Part shown: piece after piece, positions 21,091 through 26,995 of the stretch | Position numbering within the stretch: the first letter of the stretch is position 1 | Layout of the letters: every line of letters starts with the position of its first letter | From: Pleomorphomonas sp. | GTDB taxonomy: Bacteria; Pseudomonadota; Alphaproteobacteria; Rhizobiales; Pleomorphomonadaceae | Reading direction: 5' to 3' | DNA length: 32,134 bases | NCBI GenBank assembly: GCA_030603685.1 | Contig: JAUVXG010000032.1 | Location: forward strand, 1-32,134 | Notes under the pieces: generated by a model | Told to the model about the DNA's origin: nothing | What the model saw: only the letters and a program-made list of their open reading frames with translations | Databases searched by the model: none | Made by a program: the position numbers and the translations under genes

Positions 21091-22253
21091 CGTCCTTGTT
21101 TGTCGATCCAGGCGGCGAGACGGGCAACCGCCTCGTCCAGAACCTCGTCACGCTTGGAAAAGCAGAATCGGATATACCGCTTTGGCGGTTCCGAAGCATA
21201 GAAGACGGAGACTGGCACCGCGGCAACCCCGGCCTCGCGCGTCATCCTGAGGCAGGCCTCGGCATCATCGTCAATGCCGAGCGGTCCGGTATCGGTCACG
21301 ACGAAATACGTGCCGGCCGACGGCAGCACGGAAAATCCGAGCGTCGAAAGCCCCTTCGAGAGGCGGTCGCGCTTGGCTTGCAGGCCGGCGACGAAGCTGT
21401 CGAAATACTCGTCTCCAAACGACAGCCCGTGCGCCACGGCCGTTTGGAGCGCCGGCGGCGTCGTGAAGGTGATGAACTGGTGCGCCTTGGCGATCGGCTC
21501 CATCAACGCTGGGGCGGCGGTGACATAGCCCACCTTCCAGCCGGTCAGTGAGAAGGTCTTGCCGGCCGAACCGATGCGGACGACGCGATCGCGCATGCCG
21601 GGAAGCTGCATCGGCGAGACGTGTCGCTTGCCGTCGAACACCAGGTGTTCGTAGACCTCGTCGGAAATCACCAACGCGTCATGCTTGAGGCAGAGACCGG
21701 CGATCAGCTCAAGCTCTTCCCGCGTGAACACCTTGCCGGCCGGGTTCATCGGCGTGTTGATCAGGATTGCCTTGGTGCGGTCCGAAAAGGCGGCGGCCAA
21801 TGCTTTCGGATCGATCTCCCAGCTGGGCGGTGCGATGCGTACCGGCTTGGGAATGCCGCCAGCCTGCCGGACGATGGGCAGATAGCTGTCGTAGAGCGGC
21901 TCGATCAGCACCACCTCGTCGCCGGGACGAACGAGGCCGAGGATGGCATCGGCAAGCGCCTCGGTGGCGCCGGACGTCACCATGATCTCAGTCTGCCAAT
22001 CGACCGCGAGCCCATGGAAGCGCTCGTTGATTGTCGCGACGGCTTGCCGCAACGCCGGCAAACCCATCATCGGCGGGTATTGGTTGGGACCGGCAAGAAA
22101 AGCTTCGGCGGCGACGCGGCGCACCTCTTCCGGGCCATCGACGTCGGGAAAACCCTGACCAAGATTAATGGCGCCGGTCTCGCGAGCGAGACCCGACATC
22201 ACCTCGAAGATGGTGGTTGGAAGGCCGGTAAAGATGGGATTGGTCGGTTTCAT
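21087..22253 (-). CDS. PLP-dependent aminotransferase, class I/II (aspartate or methionine aminotransferase-like)
   Basis: A 388-residue fold-type I aminotransferase. Recognisable parts are GAINLGQGFPDVDGPEEV near the N-terminus, NQYPPMMGLPALRQAVA, the TSGATEALADAI cofactor loop, INTPMNPAGKVFTREE (Asn contacting PLP), VISDEVYEHLVFDG (Asp/Tyr pair), SAGKTFSLTGWKVGY with the Schiff-base lysine, and a C-terminal YIRFCFSK arginine for the substrate carboxylate. The ATG at 22251-22253 was chosen because the family starts just before PTNPIFTGLPTTIFE; the open frame extends 31 codons upstream without homology. It resembles YbdL-type enzymes, which use methionine and other amino acids. It heads an operon with asparaginase and the small membrane protein. 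Confidence 0.92.
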   Translation of the reverse strand: MKPTNPIFTGLPTTIFEVMSGLARETGAINLGQGFPDVDGPEEVRRVAAEAFLAGPNQYPPMMGLPALRQAVATINERFHGLAVDWQTEIMVTSGATEALADAILGLVRPGDEVVLIEPLYDSYLPIVRQAGGIPKPVRIAPPSWEIDPKALAAAFSDRTKAILINTPMNPAGKVFTREELELIAGLCLKHDALVISDEVYEHLVFDGKRHVSPMQLPGMRDRVVRIGSAGKTFSLTGWKVGYVTAAPALMEPIAKAHQFITFTTPPALQTAVAHGLSFGDEYFDSFVAGLQAKRDRLSKGLSTLGFSVLPSAGTYFVVTDTGPLGIDDDAEACLRMTREAGVAAVPVSVFYASEPPKRYIRFCFSKRDEVLDEAVARLAAWIDKQGR

Positions 22254-22413
22254 CGTCAGATCGGCGCCGTAAACTCGGCGCGACCCTAGTGGACCGCCAC
22301 GTCCCCCACAAGCGGTTTGCCATCGCCACCTGTTCGCCCCGCGCATGGCTCGTTCTCACGGGGCGGGTTGTTTGCCTATGGCGCCTTTGAGCGCATCCGG
22401 CTAAGCTCGTCAC

Positions 22414-22495
22414 ATCTCACGGGGTGCCCCATCCGGGGCTGAGAGGAGTTTCTCCAACCCGACGAACCTGATCCGGGTCATGCCGGCGGAGGGAT
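22414..22495 (+). promoter_or_regulatory. Thiamine pyrophosphate (TPP) riboswitch, THI-box aptamer
   Basis: All conserved parts of the TPP aptamer are present in order. The P1 arms are ATCTC (22414-22418) and GGGAT (22491-22495). They enclose GGGGTGCCCC, the P3 stem GCCCC/GGGGC, the invariant CTGAGA (22439-22444), an optional GGAG-TTT-CTCC hairpin, AACCCG, the ACCTGATCCGGGT pyrophosphate-sensing arm, and the terminal TGCCGGCGGAGGGA. A purine-rich GGAGGG (22488-22493) sits inside the 3' end and would be masked when TPP closes P1, the usual translational OFF design in proteobacteria. The downstream genes are a NIPSNAP protein and a TRAP transporter. Confidence 0.95.
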
Positions 22496-22501
22496 AGAGC
22501 C

Positions 22502-22519
22502 ATGCAGACAATCGCCTGA
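22502..22519 (+). CDS. Five-codon leader ORF directly after the TPP riboswitch
   Basis: ATG CAG ACA ATC GCC TGA encodes MQTIA. Its ATG is 8 nt after the GGAGGG embedded in the aptamer, an ideal initiation spacing. The NIPSNAP start at 22560, 40 nt after this stop, has no Shine-Dalgarno sequence of its own. The riboswitch may thus control this minicistron, with NIPSNAP expressed by re-initiation or with the leader exposed to Rho. It could equally be the remnant of a lost gene. Confidence 0.4.
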   Translation: MQTIA

Positions 22520-22559
22520 CGCGTTCCGCCGCCCCAACTGCAACGACGGCCGAACGACC

Positions 22560-22892
22560 ATGATTCTCGACGAACGCACCTACACCATAGAGCCGGCGCA
22601 TGTCGGCACCTACCTCGATCTCTATGTCCGCGAGGGAATGGCGATCCAGACCGGCCACCTCGGCACTCTGATCGGCTGGTTTACGCAGGACATCGGCACG
22701 GTCAACGACGTCGTTCACATCTGGCAGTACGACGATCTCGCCGACCGCGAGCGCCGCCGCGCGGCCATGGAGGCCGACCCTGCCTGGCAGACCTTCCGCG
22801 CCAAGGCCGCACCCTACGTCCAGACGATGAAAAGCCGGATCCTGAAACCTGCCTGGTTCTCTCCGCTCGGCGGTGTGGAGTCGAGGCGATGA
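22560..22892 (+). CDS. NIPSNAP-family protein in a TPP-riboswitch operon
   Basis: A 110-residue dimeric alpha/beta-barrel protein of the NIPSNAP family. Typical elements are MILDERTYTIEPAHVGTYLD at the start, GTLIGWFTQDIGTVNDVVHI (the conserved G.VN.VVHIW-type core) and the DPAWQTFRAK motif near the C-terminus. Bacterial members are small, often of unknown role, and occur beside catabolic or transport genes. It is the first long gene after the TPP riboswitch and its stop overlaps the TRAP permease start in an ATGA, so it is co-expressed with the transporter. It may process or bind the imported thiamine-related compound (inference). The start is set by family alignment; the upstream sequence lacks a ribosome-binding site. 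Confidence 0.9.
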   Translation: MILDERTYTIEPAHVGTYLDLYVREGMAIQTGHLGTLIGWFTQDIGTVNDVVHIWQYDDLADRERRRAAMEADPAWQTFRAKAAPYVQTMKSRILKPAWFSPLGGVESRR

Positions 22893-24685
22893 CGAGCATC
22901 GCGACGCGGCTGTCCGAGAGCCTCGACCGGACGCTTGCCGGCTTGCTGGCGTCCTTGCTCGCGGCGCTGCTCGTTCTGGTCTTCGGCGCCACGTTTTTGC
23001 GCTACGTCTTCGCGACCAGCTTCGTCGCCACCGAAGACCTTGGCATCCTCCTGCATACCGCATTGGTGTTCCTCGGCCTGCCGCTCTGCGCCAATGGACC
23101 GCTTGCCATGCGCATCGACGTGTTGACCCGGCGCCTGGGGCCGCGCGGGCGAACAATGGCGGAGGCCATCTCCGACGCCGTCACCCTCGCCGGCGCATTG
23201 GTCTTGATGCTCGGCGCCGGCAAGGTGGCTACACTGATCGGCGGCACCTCCCCGACGCTCGGCATTTCCGAGAGCTGGCGATTCTGGCCGGTGGCGATCG
23301 GCGGAGCTCTGGCGACGGGGCACCTGATCCTCGGCTCCCTGTCCCTGGGACGGACATGGCTGTGCGTCCTTGCCATTATCGCCGGTGGGACGAGCCTCGC
23401 AGCCCTGCCGCACCTGCCTCCGTTTACGTCGGTCGATTTGCCCAGCCTGATCGCCTGCGCCGTCGTCTGTGTCGCCCTCCTCGCCGGAGCACCCTTCGTG
23501 CACTCGCTGATCGTCGGGTTGGCCTTTGCGGTTCCCTTCGGCGCCCGCCTGCCCGAGGCGGCCATCGTGCAACAGACTGTGTCGGGGATGGGCAAGTTCC
23601 TGCTGCTCGCCATCCCTTTCTTCCTTCTGGCCGGAATGCTGATGAATGTCGGAGGCTTGGCTCACCGCCTCGTGCGGTTCGCCTCGACGCTGGTCGGACA
23701 TCGGCGCGGCGGCATGGCCCAGGCGACGCTGGTCACCAACCTCGTCTTTTCCGGCGTCTCCGGTTCGTCGATCGCCGACGCGGCTTTTGGCAGCAAGGTG
23801 CTGACCCCGGCTCTGGTGGCCGATGGCGTCAGGCCCGAAAAGGCAGCGGCGATCGTTGCCGCGACAGCCGTATTGCCGAACATCGTCCCGCCCTCGATCG
23901 CCTTTCTGCTGCTGGCGTCGGTCACCAACCTGTCGGTCGGCGCCCTGTTCGAGGGAGGACTTGTTGCCGGGCTCATCCTCGCGGCGGCCATGGCGGCGAT
24001 GCTGCACATTTCGGCGGACACACCAGCCCGGCCTCCCGCCCGCTGGCGTGAACGTCTGACGGCGCTCGGCGCGGCAGCGCCCGTGTTCGGTCTGGCGCTG
24101 GTTGTCTTCTTTGGTATCCGCCTCGGTCTCGCCACCCCCACCGAAGCAGCCGCCATTGCATCGGTCTACGCTCTCGTGGCCGCACTGACAGGACCGGCTG
24201 GCCGTGGCGCCGCTCTCGCGGCCTTCTTGCAGGCCGGACGCGAAACCGCAGCCATCGGCCTTCTGGTCGCCTCGTCGGCGCCGCTGGTCTTCCTCCGGGC
24301 CAGTGATGACATACCGCAAGCGCTGGCCGGCTGGGTGACCAGCTTCGGCGGCAATCCGCTCGCGGTCATGCTCGTCGCCAACCTGATCCTGCTCGCCGTT
24401 GGCGGTCCGCTCGATGTCGGTCCCGGCATCCTTCTGTTTGCGCCACTCCTGTTACCGTCCGCCGTTGCTGCCGGCATCGACCCGGTGGCTTTCGGCGTCA
24501 TTCTCACCGTCAACCTGATGATCGGCGGCATCACGCCCCCCGTCGGCGTGCTGATCTTCGTCGCAGCCGGCACCTCCGGTCTTTCTGCAAGCCGCGTGTT
24601 CCGCGCCGTATTGCCTCTCACCCTCACGCTGATCGCCGCCACGTCGTTGATGGCACTCGTCGTCGCCCTCAGGGCGTTCCCTTGA
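22889..24685 (+). CDS. TRAP transporter permease, fused small and large subunits (DctQM)
   Basis: A 598-residue inner-membrane protein. Residues 1 to about 165 form a four-helix DctQ-like domain (FLRYVFATSFVATEDLGILL is characteristic). The remainder is the DctM-like channel domain with VSGMGKFLLLAIPFFLLAGM, NLVFSGVSGSSIADAAFGSK and LPNIVPPSIAFLLLAS. The C-terminal repeat includes GGPLDVGPGILLFAPLLLP and NLMIGGITPPVGVLIFVAAG. TRAP systems import small, usually anionic, substrates by sodium symport with a periplasmic binding protein. Fused QM proteins are known, as in SiaQM. The ATG overlaps the NIPSNAP stop. Transcription from a TPP-riboswitch leader suggests a thiamine-linked substrate; none of the known thiamine importers I can name belongs to this class. 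Confidence 0.95.
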   Translation: MTSIATRLSESLDRTLAGLLASLLAALLVLVFGATFLRYVFATSFVATEDLGILLHTALVFLGLPLCANGPLAMRIDVLTRRLGPRGRTMAEAISDAVTLAGALVLMLGAGKVATLIGGTSPTLGISESWRFWPVAIGGALATGHLILGSLSLGRTWLCVLAIIAGGTSLAALPHLPPFTSVDLPSLIACAVVCVALLAGAPFVHSLIVGLAFAVPFGARLPEAAIVQQTVSGMGKFLLLAIPFFLLAGMLMNVGGLAHRLVRFASTLVGHRRGGMAQATLVTNLVFSGVSGSSIADAAFGSKVLTPALVADGVRPEKAAAIVAATAVLPNIVPPSIAFLLLASVTNLSVGALFEGGLVAGLILAAAMAAMLHISADTPARPPARWRERLTALGAAAPVFGLALVVFFGIRLGLATPTEAAAIASVYALVAALTGPAGRGAALAAFLQAGRETAAIGLLVASSAPLVFLRASDDIPQALAGWVTSFGGNPLAVMLVANLILLAVGGPLDVGPGILLFAPLLLPSAVAAGIDPVAFGVILTVNLMIGGITPPVGVLIFVAAGTSGLSASRVFRAVLPLTLTLIAATSLMALVVALRAFP

Positions 24686-24706
24686 TCTCAACTTCGGAGA
24701 AAAACC

Positions 24707-25693
24707 TTGCCCCTTCTCACGCGTCGCGCCTTTGCCGCCGGCCTCGCCACCCTTGCCCTACCCGCGGTCATTCGACCGGCCAAAGCCGCGCCGAGGGCGC
24801 TGACAGTCGCCTCCCTGCTCGGTGACGACAAACCCGAGACGAAGATCTGGCTCAAGGTGCGCGATCTTGTGGAGGCAAAGCTTCCCGGCCGTTTCGATTT
24901 CCGCATCGTCGGCAACGCGGCTCTGGGCGGTGAAAAGGAAGTCGCGGAGGGCATCCGCCTCGGCTCGATCCAGGCCAGCCTGTCCACCCTGTCGGCGCTA
25001 TCGGCCTGGGTGCCGGAAACGCAGCTCTTCGACCTGCCCTTCGTCTTTCGCGACCGCGATCATGTCCGCCGCGCCACCACGGGGCCGATCGGCGATGAGT
25101 TCAGGCAGAAGCTGACCGACCAGGGCTTCGTCACCCTGGGCTTCATCAACTATGGTGCCCGGCACCTTCTCGCCAAGGAGGCGGTGACCACGCCGGAAGG
25201 CGTGTCCGGCAAACGCATCCGCGTCATCCAAAGCCCGCTGCACGTCGAGCTCTGGAAAGCCTACGGCGCGTTACCGACGCCGATTCCGATTACCGAAACC
25301 TACAACGCCCTGAAGACGGGCGTCGTCGACATGATGGACCTCACCAAGTCAGCCTATGCCGGCTTCCGCCTCTATGAAGTGGTGCCCTATCTCATCGAGA
25401 CCGCCCACATTTGGGCGACCGGTGCGGTCTACTTGTCGGCCGGCTTCTGGAACAGCCTCGCCGACGACGAGAAGGCAGTGTTCGCGTCGGCGATCTCCGA
25501 GGGGACGACCTATTTCGACGAGTTGATGCTGGCCGACGAGACGACGTCGATGGAGGCGGCACTGGCCGCTGGTGGGCGGATGATCGAGCCGGAAAACCGG
25601 GACGATTGGGCCAAGGGGGCCGAAGGTGTCTGGACAACCCTGGCGCCAACGGTCGGCGGCATGGACAGGATCAAGGCACTCGCTGCTCTGTAG
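24707..25693 (+). CDS. TRAP transporter substrate-binding protein (DctP family), TTG start
   Basis: A 328-residue periplasmic binding protein. It starts with TTG, supported by a Shine-Dalgarno (CTTCGGAG) 9 nt upstream and by the signal peptide that follows; no ATG is suitably placed. The signal has a twin-arginine look (LLTRRAFAAGLATLALPAVI, cleavage near AKA). The mature part shows DctP features: NAALGGEKEVAEGIRLGSIQ, LFDLPFVFRDRDHVRRA, SGKRIRVIQSPLHVELWKAY (with the usual carboxylate-binding arginine) and ITETYNALKTGVVDMMDLT. The last reads MMD where the family commonly has DGQE. It begins 21 nt after the permease and completes the tripartite system. The ligand is unknown, presumably an anionic or zwitterionic thiamine-related molecule (inference). 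Confidence 0.93.
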   Translation: MPLLTRRAFAAGLATLALPAVIRPAKAAPRALTVASLLGDDKPETKIWLKVRDLVEAKLPGRFDFRIVGNAALGGEKEVAEGIRLGSIQASLSTLSALSAWVPETQLFDLPFVFRDRDHVRRATTGPIGDEFRQKLTDQGFVTLGFINYGARHLLAKEAVTTPEGVSGKRIRVIQSPLHVELWKAYGALPTPIPITETYNALKTGVVDMMDLTKSAYAGFRLYEVVPYLIETAHIWATGAVYLSAGFWNSLADDEKAVFASAISEGTTYFDELMLADETTSMEAALAAGGRMIEPENRDDWAKGAEGVWTTLAPTVGGMDRIKALAAL

Positions 25694-25716
25694 GTGCCAT
25701 ACGAGAAAGCCGGCTC

Positions 25717-25740
25717 GCCTCGCGGCGGCCGGCGCGAGGC
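25717..25740. terminator. Hairpin between convergent operons
   Basis: GCCTCGCG (25717-25724) and CGCGAGGC (25733-25740) form a perfect 8-bp stem with an 8-nt loop, in the 49-nt gap between the TRAP binding-protein gene and the convergent protease gene. There is no T-run on either side, so it is at best a weak bidirectional terminator or an RNA 3'-end stabiliser. Confidence 0.5.
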
Positions 25741-25742
25741 CG

Positions 25743-26117
25743 TCAATCCTCGACAGCAAACAGCATTCGTTGGAAGTCGAGCACAACGCGACGGCCTTGC
25801 GACAGCAGATCCTGCCCAAGCAGTCCATCCATCGGGCCCTTGACCAGGTTGGTGACCCTGACGTCGTGGATCGTCAGGGCACGGTTGCCGACATGGACGA
25901 CAAGCCTGTCGAGCGCTCTCGCTGTGTGATCGGTAACGACACCGCCAACACCCCCGGAGGTCGTAGGCTTGGCAATCGCCCGCGCGGCCAGTCCGGGGTT
26001 GCGGTCAAGCGCGCTCTCATACAGCATGGTTTTCGAGGCGCCGCTGTCGAGCATGAGCCGAAGCGGTCTGTCCCCGCCATCGACTTTGAGCAGCAGTTTC
26101 GGCTGCGCGCCGGACAT
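25743..26117 (-). CDS. C-terminal retropepsin-like domain, detached part of a split aspartyl protease gene
   Basis: Encodes 124 residues with a second retropepsin-like domain: LRLMLDSGASKTMLYESALD (catalytic-type DSGA) and DGLLGQDLLSQGRRVVLDFQ (the hydrophobic-Gly pair closing the fold). The ATG used here overlaps the stop region of the upstream half (TGATAATG). The same reading frame continues upstream without a stop to about 26178 as sensible protein (GALDYGERPGPTVAPNLIMS). So the domain probably belongs to one protein with the upstream half, joined by a frameshift of one base. It has no signal peptide of its own, and as an isolated product it would stay in the cytoplasm. Confidence 0.75.
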   Translation of the reverse strand: MSGAQPKLLLKVDGGDRPLRLMLDSGASKTMLYESALDRNPGLAARAIAKPTTSGGVGGVVTDHTARALDRLVVHVGNRALTIHDVRVTNLVKGPMDGLLGQDLLSQGRRVVLDFQRMLFAVED

Positions 26118-26119
26118 TA

Positions 26120-26995
26120 TCAGGTTTGGCGCGACAGTCGGCCCCGGTCGCTCGCCGTAGTCCAGCGCTCCTCGTCCTCAGCGCGCACGAACTCCAGACG
26201 GTCGAGCGCCCGCATCACCGGCAGGCCGATGATGGCGTCAATGCGATAGCCATCGGGAAAGCGAAGCCCCTCGTCGGGCACCACCATGAACAAGGCGTCG
26301 CGCAAGACCGTGTCGCCAAACTCGATCCGGTCGGCAACGGCGAGGCGCGTCTCGACAGAGGACCCCGTGCTGCTGCCGGTTCGCGCCGTCGAGGCAACTG
26401 CCGAAAGCTGCAAGCGATCCGCCGTTGACTGCGGAACCACGGAGAAAACGGCACCCGTATCGAGAACGCTAGCCTGCTCTCGACCGTTGATCAGCATCGT
26501 GGCAACCGTCATGCCAGCCCTGTCACGTGTGATCGCAAGGGTGCCCGGAGCATGGCGCTCGCGCCGCATTGACGGCACGTCGCGCAAGGCGGCGACGAAA
26601 TCCAGTGTGCGCTGTTCGTTTTCGTTGAGTGGCTCTTCCCTGAGCCCTCGCATCGCCTTGAGCGCACTCTCGGCCTCGGCGAAGCGGCTCTGGCGCACAA
26701 AAATCCCGGCAAGGCCGCCCTCGGCCGCCGCCTTGAGCTCATTCTCCGTCGAAGAGACGACAAGACTACGAAAGGCCGCTTCGGCCTCCACGTCATGGTT
26801 GTAAAGGCTGAGCACGGTCGCCGCGGCAAGATCTCGTTCGGCCTTCGTCGGCGCGGTCCGGCTTAGTGACTGAAGAAGAATAACGTCGTCGGCATCAATC
26901 GCATCGAGGAGCGCCGAAGCCCTGGCCGACAGGGTCGCCACCAACAGCATTGTCGTCACCACGCCAACAAGGCGGACAAAAGGAGAGCAGGTCAT
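26120..26995 (-). CDS. Secreted retropepsin-like aspartyl protease, N-terminal part of a split gene
   Basis: Encodes 291 residues: a signal peptide (MTCSPFVRLVGVVTTMLLVA and on to ARASA), an alpha-helical region resembling TPR-like repeats (AAFRSLVVSSTENELKAAAE, then FAEAESALKAMRGL), and a retropepsin-like domain with VLDTGAVFSVVPQSTADRL and DAIIGLPVMRALDRLEF. The last 14 residues (TTASDRGRLSRQT) are out of character. In the adjacent frame the DNA reads LDYGERPGPTVAPNL, leading into a second protease domain. Adding one base near 26165 would restore a protein of 417 residues spanning 25743-26995. The gene is either a recent pseudogene, a sequence error, or two coupled genes. Substrates are unknown. 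Confidence 0.78.
   Translation of the reverse strand: MTCSPFVRLVGVVTTMLLVATLSARASALLDAIDADDVILLQSLSRTAPTKAERDLAAATVLSLYNHDVEAEAAFRSLVVSSTENELKAAAEGGLAGIFVRQSRFAEAESALKAMRGLREEPLNENEQRTLDFVAALRDVPSMRRERHAPGTLAITRDRAGMTVATMLINGREQASVLDTGAVFSVVPQSTADRLQLSAVASTARTGSSTGSSVETRLAVADRIEFGDTVLRDALFMVVPDEGLRFPDGYRIDAIIGLPVMRALDRLEFVRAEDEERWTTASDRGRLSRQT

Follow-up and report, generated by a model that had tools for sequence, protein, structure and literature searches.

A TRAP transporter operon behind a TPP riboswitch in Pleomorphomonas: a candidate importer of a thiamin precursor, probably the thiazole half

The window analysed here is a stretch of 32,134 nucleotides from Pleomorphomonas sp. (contig JAUVXG010000032.1 of assembly GCA_030603685.1), in which an aptamer of the thiamin pyrophosphate (TPP) riboswitch precedes genes for a NIPSNAP-family protein, a fused DctQ–DctM permease of the TRAP family and a DctP solute-binding protein. 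We conclude that this TRAP system is very probably a thiamin-related importer, presumably repressed by TPP, because homologous DctQM–DctP pairs recur behind TPP aptamers in thiamin (thi) operons of several lineages. Its substrate is probably the thiazole half of the vitamin, and we consider it likely that the operon provides TPP-repressed uptake of an anionic thiamin precursor, the foremost candidate being a thiazole acid, either the carboxythiazole cHET or a near relative of it.

The features of the operon are collected in Table 1. The leader matches RF00059 with 69.1 bits (gathering score 54.3; E 8.5e-12) over model positions 1–105 of 105, and when 18 TPP aptamers, taken from this operon and from others, are aligned, the core letters do not vary. 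By its full-length match and conserved core, the element is a member of the family, with TPP binding and switching predicted. The three genes lie tightly spaced on one strand, the first two overlapping by 4 bases, and their products comprise the DctQ and DctM membrane subunits, joined in one protein of 598 residues, and a DctP receptor with a conserved arginine. In the alignment with the TRAP receptor 4n15, this residue, R172, falls on an arginine that we take to bind carboxylates, and R172 presumably does the same. The AlphaFold model of DctP (mean pLDDT 88.5) matches TRAP receptors, with 4ln5 as its best Foldseek match (TMq 0.82). The original prediction had described a complete THI-box aptamer in front of a NIPSNAP protein, a fused TRAP permease and a binding protein; Rfam and Pfam agree with it, and its coordinates were right to within a few bases. 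In searches of Pfam and NCBIfam at E 0.001, the three proteins match only NIPSNAP or TRAP families (the NIPSNAP protein having no NCBIfam match), and no subunit of ThiXYZ, ThiBPQ, ThiT, PnuT or another known thiamin importer was found among them.

Table 1. Features of the TPP-linked TRAP operon in the window
Feature	Position	Strand	Basis and remarks
TPP riboswitch aptamer (THI element)	22410..22512	+	Rfam RF00059, complete; precedes TRAP in 12/12 TRAP-bearing genus genomes
GGAGGG in aptamer	22488..22493	+	Sequence; ends 8 bases 5' of mini-ORF ATG; identical in 10 aligned leaders
5-codon mini-ORF, ATG CAG ACA NNN NNN TGA (MQTIA in window)	22502..22519	+	Pattern search of genus leaders
NIPSNAP-family protein, 110 aa	22560..22892	+	PF07978 98.7 bits; solved relatives 5k9f, 2ap6, 1vqs
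Fused TRAP permease DctQ-DctM, 598 aa	22889..24685	+	PF04290 65.9 bits, PF06808 271.6 bits; TIGR00786 above its cut-off
TRAP solute-binding protein DctP, 328 aa, TTG start as listed	24707..25693	+	PF03480 193.5 bits

Within the genus, DctP is present at 85–100% identity in 12 of 14 genomes, with no sequence that close in G007 and G008 (G and L numbers are our designations for genomes and loci), and in every one of the 12 an above-cut-off TPP aptamer lies about 2.2 kb 5' of DctP on the same strand. So constant a linkage is not that of a chance neighbour, and on this ground a chance or relic aptamer was ruled out. The related proposal that the aptamer is a mere remnant, decayed or unrelated, and does not control the operon finds some encouragement in the leader, where the folding is no better than that of shuffled sequences (z +0.98), no match to a sigma-70-type promoter occurs in 22250–25900 and no terminator-like hairpin is present, the three scan matches all falling inside coding genes. 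With the core of the aptamer intact and the linkage kept in all 12 genomes, we give this proposal almost no weight.

Since the leader has no terminator-like hairpin, a terminator-type expression platform was rejected, and we propose instead a translational or Rho-type mechanism by way of the mini-ORF (open reading frame); that control is exerted in either of these ways is a guess. In 12/12 distinct genus leaders, the mini-ORF lies directly 3' of the aptamer, its length, stop and first three codons are constant, and its stop falls 40–42 bases 5' of the NIPSNAP ATG; the search pattern demanded the 3' end of the aptamer and the ATG, but not the stop. The GGAGGG hexamer, compared in a multiple alignment of ten genus leaders, is a possible ribosome-binding site that TPP might mask, and the mini-ORF is a possible leader ORF within the expression platform. 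The minimum-energy fold of the unliganded leader differs from the aptamer fold. When TPP is scarce, the aptamer would stay open and NIPSNAP, DctQM and DctP would be made; when TPP is bound, the ribosome site of the mini-ORF would plausibly be hidden, leaving the leader untranslated and the operon off. An excerpt of PMC3738593 reports that an Agrobacterium thiC leader of the RF00059 family is shut off by thiamin.

The case for a thiamin-related function comes mainly from homologues outside the genus. These were taken from the best 80 of 118 relatives (9 Pleomorphomonas-group loci and 71 others) and from a survey of the order, which found DctP at E 1e-85 or better in 29 of 397 genomes, 12 of the 29 in the genus, and added 17 loci. 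The 97 rows of the DctP tree and the 88 non-genus loci derive from these sets and include doubles from the same genome (e.g. L057/L161, L062/L163, L089/L160 and L092/L159). Six of the 88 loci carry thiX-thiY-thiM-thiE-thiD-DctQM-DctP as one run: L058 (Pseudaminobacter manganicus), L067 (a metagenome-assembled Hyphomicrobiales genome), L111 (Rhizobium lemnae), L113 (a metagenome-assembled Rhizobiaceae genome), L166 (G235) and L168 (G329). All six have an above-cut-off TPP aptamer 5' of thiX as judged by Rfam. A plasmid search gave 11 records, and four of the seven fetched hold the same operon with a TPP aptamer, in Rhizobium rhizoryzae, Rhizobium sp. SSA_523, Allorhizobium pseudoryzae and Ensifer canadensis (L181, L182, L183 and L187); two of the remainder show the SsuA/SsuD context described below and one shows neither. 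DctQM and DctP are the last two genes in all ten of these operons. The identities of ThiY, ThiM, ThiE and ThiD were checked with Pfam in L111, the genes of the other loci being named by tblastn against the L111 and L067 proteins.

In a maximum-likelihood tree of the 97 DctP rows, Pleomorphomonas forms one clade (100/100) set apart from the thi-operon rows. The six thi-operon rows require four label changes, all of them forced by well-supported branches, so that TPP linkage has been gained or lost several times; a caveat is that some of the rows sit on long branches, and the program warns that its grouping of L113 with L169 could be spurious. One row, L084 (JAHREI010000001.1), is titled Bacillus subtilis SK6B4 and groups among Pseudochrobactrum; the assembly is probably mislabelled or contaminated. 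The recurrence of TPP aptamers and thi genes beside these TRAP genes in separate lineages marks them as a probable uptake system for a thiamin precursor, and the ten non-genus operons together with the 12/12 linkage in the genus support the original proposal of a thiamin-related TRAP importer.

The NIPSNAP gene does not share this distribution. It has no match in any of the ten thi operons at E 1e-6, which rules it out as an essential partner of the transporter. Conversely, NIPSNAP stands beside TRAP genes in 16 non-genus loci, none with an aptamer (nine also by Rfam), and TPP control as a general trait of NIPSNAP–TRAP operons was ruled out. The solved proteins 5k9f, 2ap6 (Atu4242) and 1vqs are homologous to the NIPSNAP protein over nearly the whole length, and their entries name no function; among the loci examined, the NIPSNAP–TRAP pair stands behind a TPP aptamer only in Pleomorphomonas. 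Any role of NIPSNAP in uptake is one that we infer.

The choice of the thiazole half rests on gene content. thiC was found in none of the 14 genus genomes, with a model positive in 13 of 14 control genomes, and thiG exceeds its cut-off in three, G003, G007 and G008. It is present in both genomes that have no TRAP genes and was not found in 11 of the 12 that have them. Neither thiC nor thiG is detectable in the source genome; that assembly is 96% complete, and those of G010 and G011 89% and 86%, which makes gene absences there less sure. By contrast thiM occurs in all 14 genomes, directly preceded in all 12 TRAP-bearing ones by an above-cut-off TPP aptamer (54.7–67.0 bits); no aptamer was found 5' of thiM in G007 and only a sub-threshold one in G008, where a 43-bit match (G008:C62:125096-125190, L180) precedes thiM and thiE. 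The other TPP aptamers of the source genome precede thiX-thiY (L001 and L173), thiM (L004) and a Nudix-like gene with thiD (L003). Read from these genes, a thiazole source is what the TPP regulon of the source genome appears to lack. In six genomes sampled from the family's other genera, no TRAP genes occur at E 1e-85, and thiG is present in all six.

A pyrimidine-side compound or the whole vitamin might be imported instead, the candidates being pyrimidine methanesulphonate, a carboxylated pyrimidine or thiamin; sulphite cleaves thiamin, releasing pyrimidine methanesulphonate. The TPP linkage fits this equally well, and the lack of thiC throughout the genus means that pyrimidine is needed too. 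Moreover, a sulphonate ligand would account for the SsuD-like monooxygenase encoded beside many homologues, exemplified by the L061 protein, which scores 358.9 bits against solved SsuD (1nqk). We nevertheless think such a ligand unlikely: thiX-thiY already stands behind a TPP aptamer in all ten thi operons and in the source genome, the TRAP-less genomes of the genus are also without thiC, and beyond the genus the presence of TRAP genes shows no association with the loss of thiC (absent in 8/17 against 173/366, p=1). ThiY is, moreover, listed as a pyrimidine-precursor receptor in an excerpt of PMC10881298. We favour thiazole because thiC was not found in the genus nor thiG in 11 of the 12 TRAP-bearing genomes, and because of the presence of thiG in the TRAP-less genomes, the TPP-controlled thiM in all 12 TRAP-bearing genomes and the thiXY genes already in place in the thi operons.

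Several observations weigh against a thiazole substrate. The TRAP-bearing genome G003 keeps thiG, and the thiG pattern inside the genus may be a single event. thiE was not seen near the TPP-linked thi genes of the source genome, no genome-wide search for it having been made. In the order sample (n=397), thiG is lacking in 24/29 TRAP-bearing genomes against 181/368 others; outside the genus, the association weakens to 13/17 against 181/366 (p=0.044), four of the 17 keeping thiG, and in a stricter count requiring DctP identity of at least 56% it falls to 10/14 against 184/369 (p=0.17). The stricter count excludes G130, G149 and G199, whose DctP is 46–50% identical and which are within the 29. 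thiC without thiG follows the same course (5/17 against 39/366, p=0.034; stricter count 3/14 against 41/369, p=0.21). These p-values, from Fisher tests that treat genomes as independent with phylogeny uncorrected, are too small because TRAP-bearing genomes cluster in genera, 5 of the 29 belonging to genus g81 and 12 to genus g1. Beyond the genus, thiG and thiC were sought in 44 TRAP-bearing genomes, a subset of those found, and in the six family relatives; thiG is present in 18 of the 44, with a thiC match in 26 (one partial), thiC without thiG in 11 and thiG without thiC in 3. Among the six thi-operon genomes, G235 and G399 have both thiC and thiG, whereas G329, G397, G398 and G400 have neither. 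Overall, with related genomes counted as independent, gene content leans to thiazole. As to the ligands originally listed, thiamine, hydroxymethylpyrimidine (HMP), thiazole and derivatives, gene content leans to a thiazole acid rather than HMP or thiamin, a choice of ligand that we infer.

Acids are common ligands of TRAP receptors, which hold them by a conserved arginine. Of the two thiazole compounds considered, hydroxyethylthiazole (HET) is neutral and cHET is an acid. For these reasons, and because of the use of cHET described in PMC5899164, cHET itself is our best single guess, though a tentative one. Excerpts of that paper report that cHET feeds an Escherichia coli ΔthiG strain at sub-picomolar levels and that ThiM is required for its use in Ostreococcus; transport systems for thiazole precursors were there said, in 2018, to be of 'unknown sequence identity'. 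Periplasmic DctP would capture the thiazole acid and DctQM would import it, presumably with sodium. ThiM, which has its own TPP aptamer in the source genome, would then phosphorylate the imported thiazole so that it can be joined to the pyrimidine half, which ThiXY probably imports.

Most homologues are found in other surroundings, and this also counts against a role in thiamin salvage. In 82 of the 97 tree rows, there is no TPP aptamer in the fetched stretch, usually about 6 kb 5' of DctP and shorter in L076, L098 and L172; the check offered with the original proposal, whether homologues elsewhere lie near THI boxes, nevertheless did not refute it, since the ten non-genus pairs stand behind TPP aptamers. 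A covariance model built on an RNAalifold structure of 17 pairs, and so mostly a sequence model, found aptamers with E <1e-10 among 100 loci only in nine Pleomorphomonas loci and in L058, L111, L166 and L168. In L067 the model matched only the last 31 aptamer bases, at the locus edge (E 0.15), and the aptamer of L113 sits just beyond its edge. A covariance match in L039 (E 0.08) looks like noise, and THI-box pattern candidates were discarded in L045, which has no Rfam match, and in L157, which has none at that site in G255.

In 38 of the 97 rows an SsuD-like gene lies 5' of the TRAP genes, accompanied in 37 by an SsuA-like gene, and these neighbours point to organosulphur use. The arrangement is seen in L061, L046, L184, L185 and many Rhizobium and Agrobacterium loci, the SsuA-like protein seemingly lacking a signal peptide, and genes for an ArsR regulator and a glutathione S-transferase (GST) often accompany the pair. 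An organosulphur pathway made up of this pair and the transporter is possible. In L184 (Thioclava sp. GXIMD2076 plasmid p2), a gene of the gamma-glutamyltransferase family lies directly 3' of DctP; this gene and the GST genes close to other homologues are a hint that the transporter may be surrounded by glutathione chemistry.

Two further interpretations arise from these neighbours. According to the first, the transporter serves sulphur or carbon nutrition by taking up an organosulphur compound or a carboxylic acid, and its control by TPP reflects a need other than thiamin synthesis. The SsuD-like neighbours, the same SsuA/SsuD-like pair in Thioclava and Marinibacterium and the many rows without TPP linkage are consistent with this; it leaves unexplained why homologues from several parts of the tree belong to thiM-thiE-thiD operons and why aptamer and transporter are linked in all 12 TRAP-bearing genus genomes, and we judge it improbable. 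The second, which overlaps with thiazole uptake and to which we assign a low probability, is that one transporter has two uses, carrying a thiazole acid everywhere, for thiamin salvage in TPP-linked loci and for ring opening to obtain sulphur in SsuA/SsuD-like loci. The flavin monooxygenase and the SsuA-fold protein without evident signal peptide would open the thiazole ring, much as DszA and DszB open dibenzothiophene for sulphur. In its favour, the contexts are not cleanly told apart by any receptor residue, the L061 SsuA-like protein carries an NMT1 domain and appears to start directly with the fold, an ArsR-type neighbour in Marinibacterium bears the annotation bigR, and no ABC permease is annotated beside the SsuA-like gene in Thioclava or Marinibacterium, where the gene tables are incomplete and no family search for permeases was made. 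Set against it are its reliance on gene context, the absence of a signal peptide as judged by eye and the resemblance of the monooxygenase to SsuD, a sulphonate enzyme. The broadest form of the cHET proposal would have the transporter as the high-affinity, sodium-driven cHET importer of alphaproteobacteria, repeatedly put under TPP control, making thiG dispensable, and with the same receptor feeding thiazole-ring sulphur salvage in the SsuA/SsuD-like relatives; we regard this as doubtful.

The receptor sequences bear on whether a ligand is shared. In 102 rows, 57 DctP columns are invariant, including R152 and R172, and TPP-linked receptors show no clean difference from the others, with only column 319 partly segregating. 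Since no clean difference follows the context, one ligand common to TPP-linked and other receptors would be the simplest of several readings.

The RF00059 operons thiX-thiY and thiM-E-D of the Hyphomicrobiales share the aptamer family and the salvage logic, and ten such loci end in TRAP genes; the transporter of the window differs in having its own aptamer and in lying with NIPSNAP. Among fused-DctQM TRAP systems, the nearest solved receptor by sequence is that of Burkholderia ambifaria (4n15/4ln5), which has the same domains, fold and arginine, but the window DctP is only about 30% identical to it, whereas the set to which DctP belongs is about 55–97% identical to the Pleomorphomonas member and lies in part in a thiamin-operon context. 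The proposed role resembles that of ThiV, ThiT, ThiBPQ, ThiXYZ, CytX, YkoF and Omr1, uptake proteins for thiamin or its precursors listed in an excerpt of PMC10881298; in that list none appears as a TRAP system, ThiV is entered as a sodium:solute symporter, and a TPP riboswitch is reported close to ThiV and to Omr1. Among the matches listed, no paper linking a TRAP system to thiamin was found by title or abstract, supplements, subscription papers and RegPrecise lying outside the scope. In the part of PMC3766115 available, the sole mention of 'TRAP' is the tryptophan attenuation protein, and in that of PMC9870897 the mentions of TRAP and TPP are unrelated.

Both the TRAP transporter and the TPP riboswitch are of known kinds; neither their pairing nor the role predicted here was met in the papers searched. 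A TRAP family that recurs in TPP-controlled salvage operons gives a named candidate for the transport of thiazole precursors. ThiV is not known to have a periplasmic receptor. If the proposal is true, a secondary, receptor-based class of transporter would be added to vitamin B1 uptake, and it could be predicted more sharply which half of the vitamin a given bacterium must obtain from others.

Two minor observations concern genes near these elements. In L003 of the source genome (G000:C189:8431-8549), the aptamer is followed by the Nudix-like gene, its Nudix box read by eye, and then by thiD; the Nudix enzyme may clear damaged thiamin compounds. Beside the TRAP operon, at 25743-26995 on the minus strand, are two adjacent genes for retropepsin-like aspartyl proteases (PF13650).

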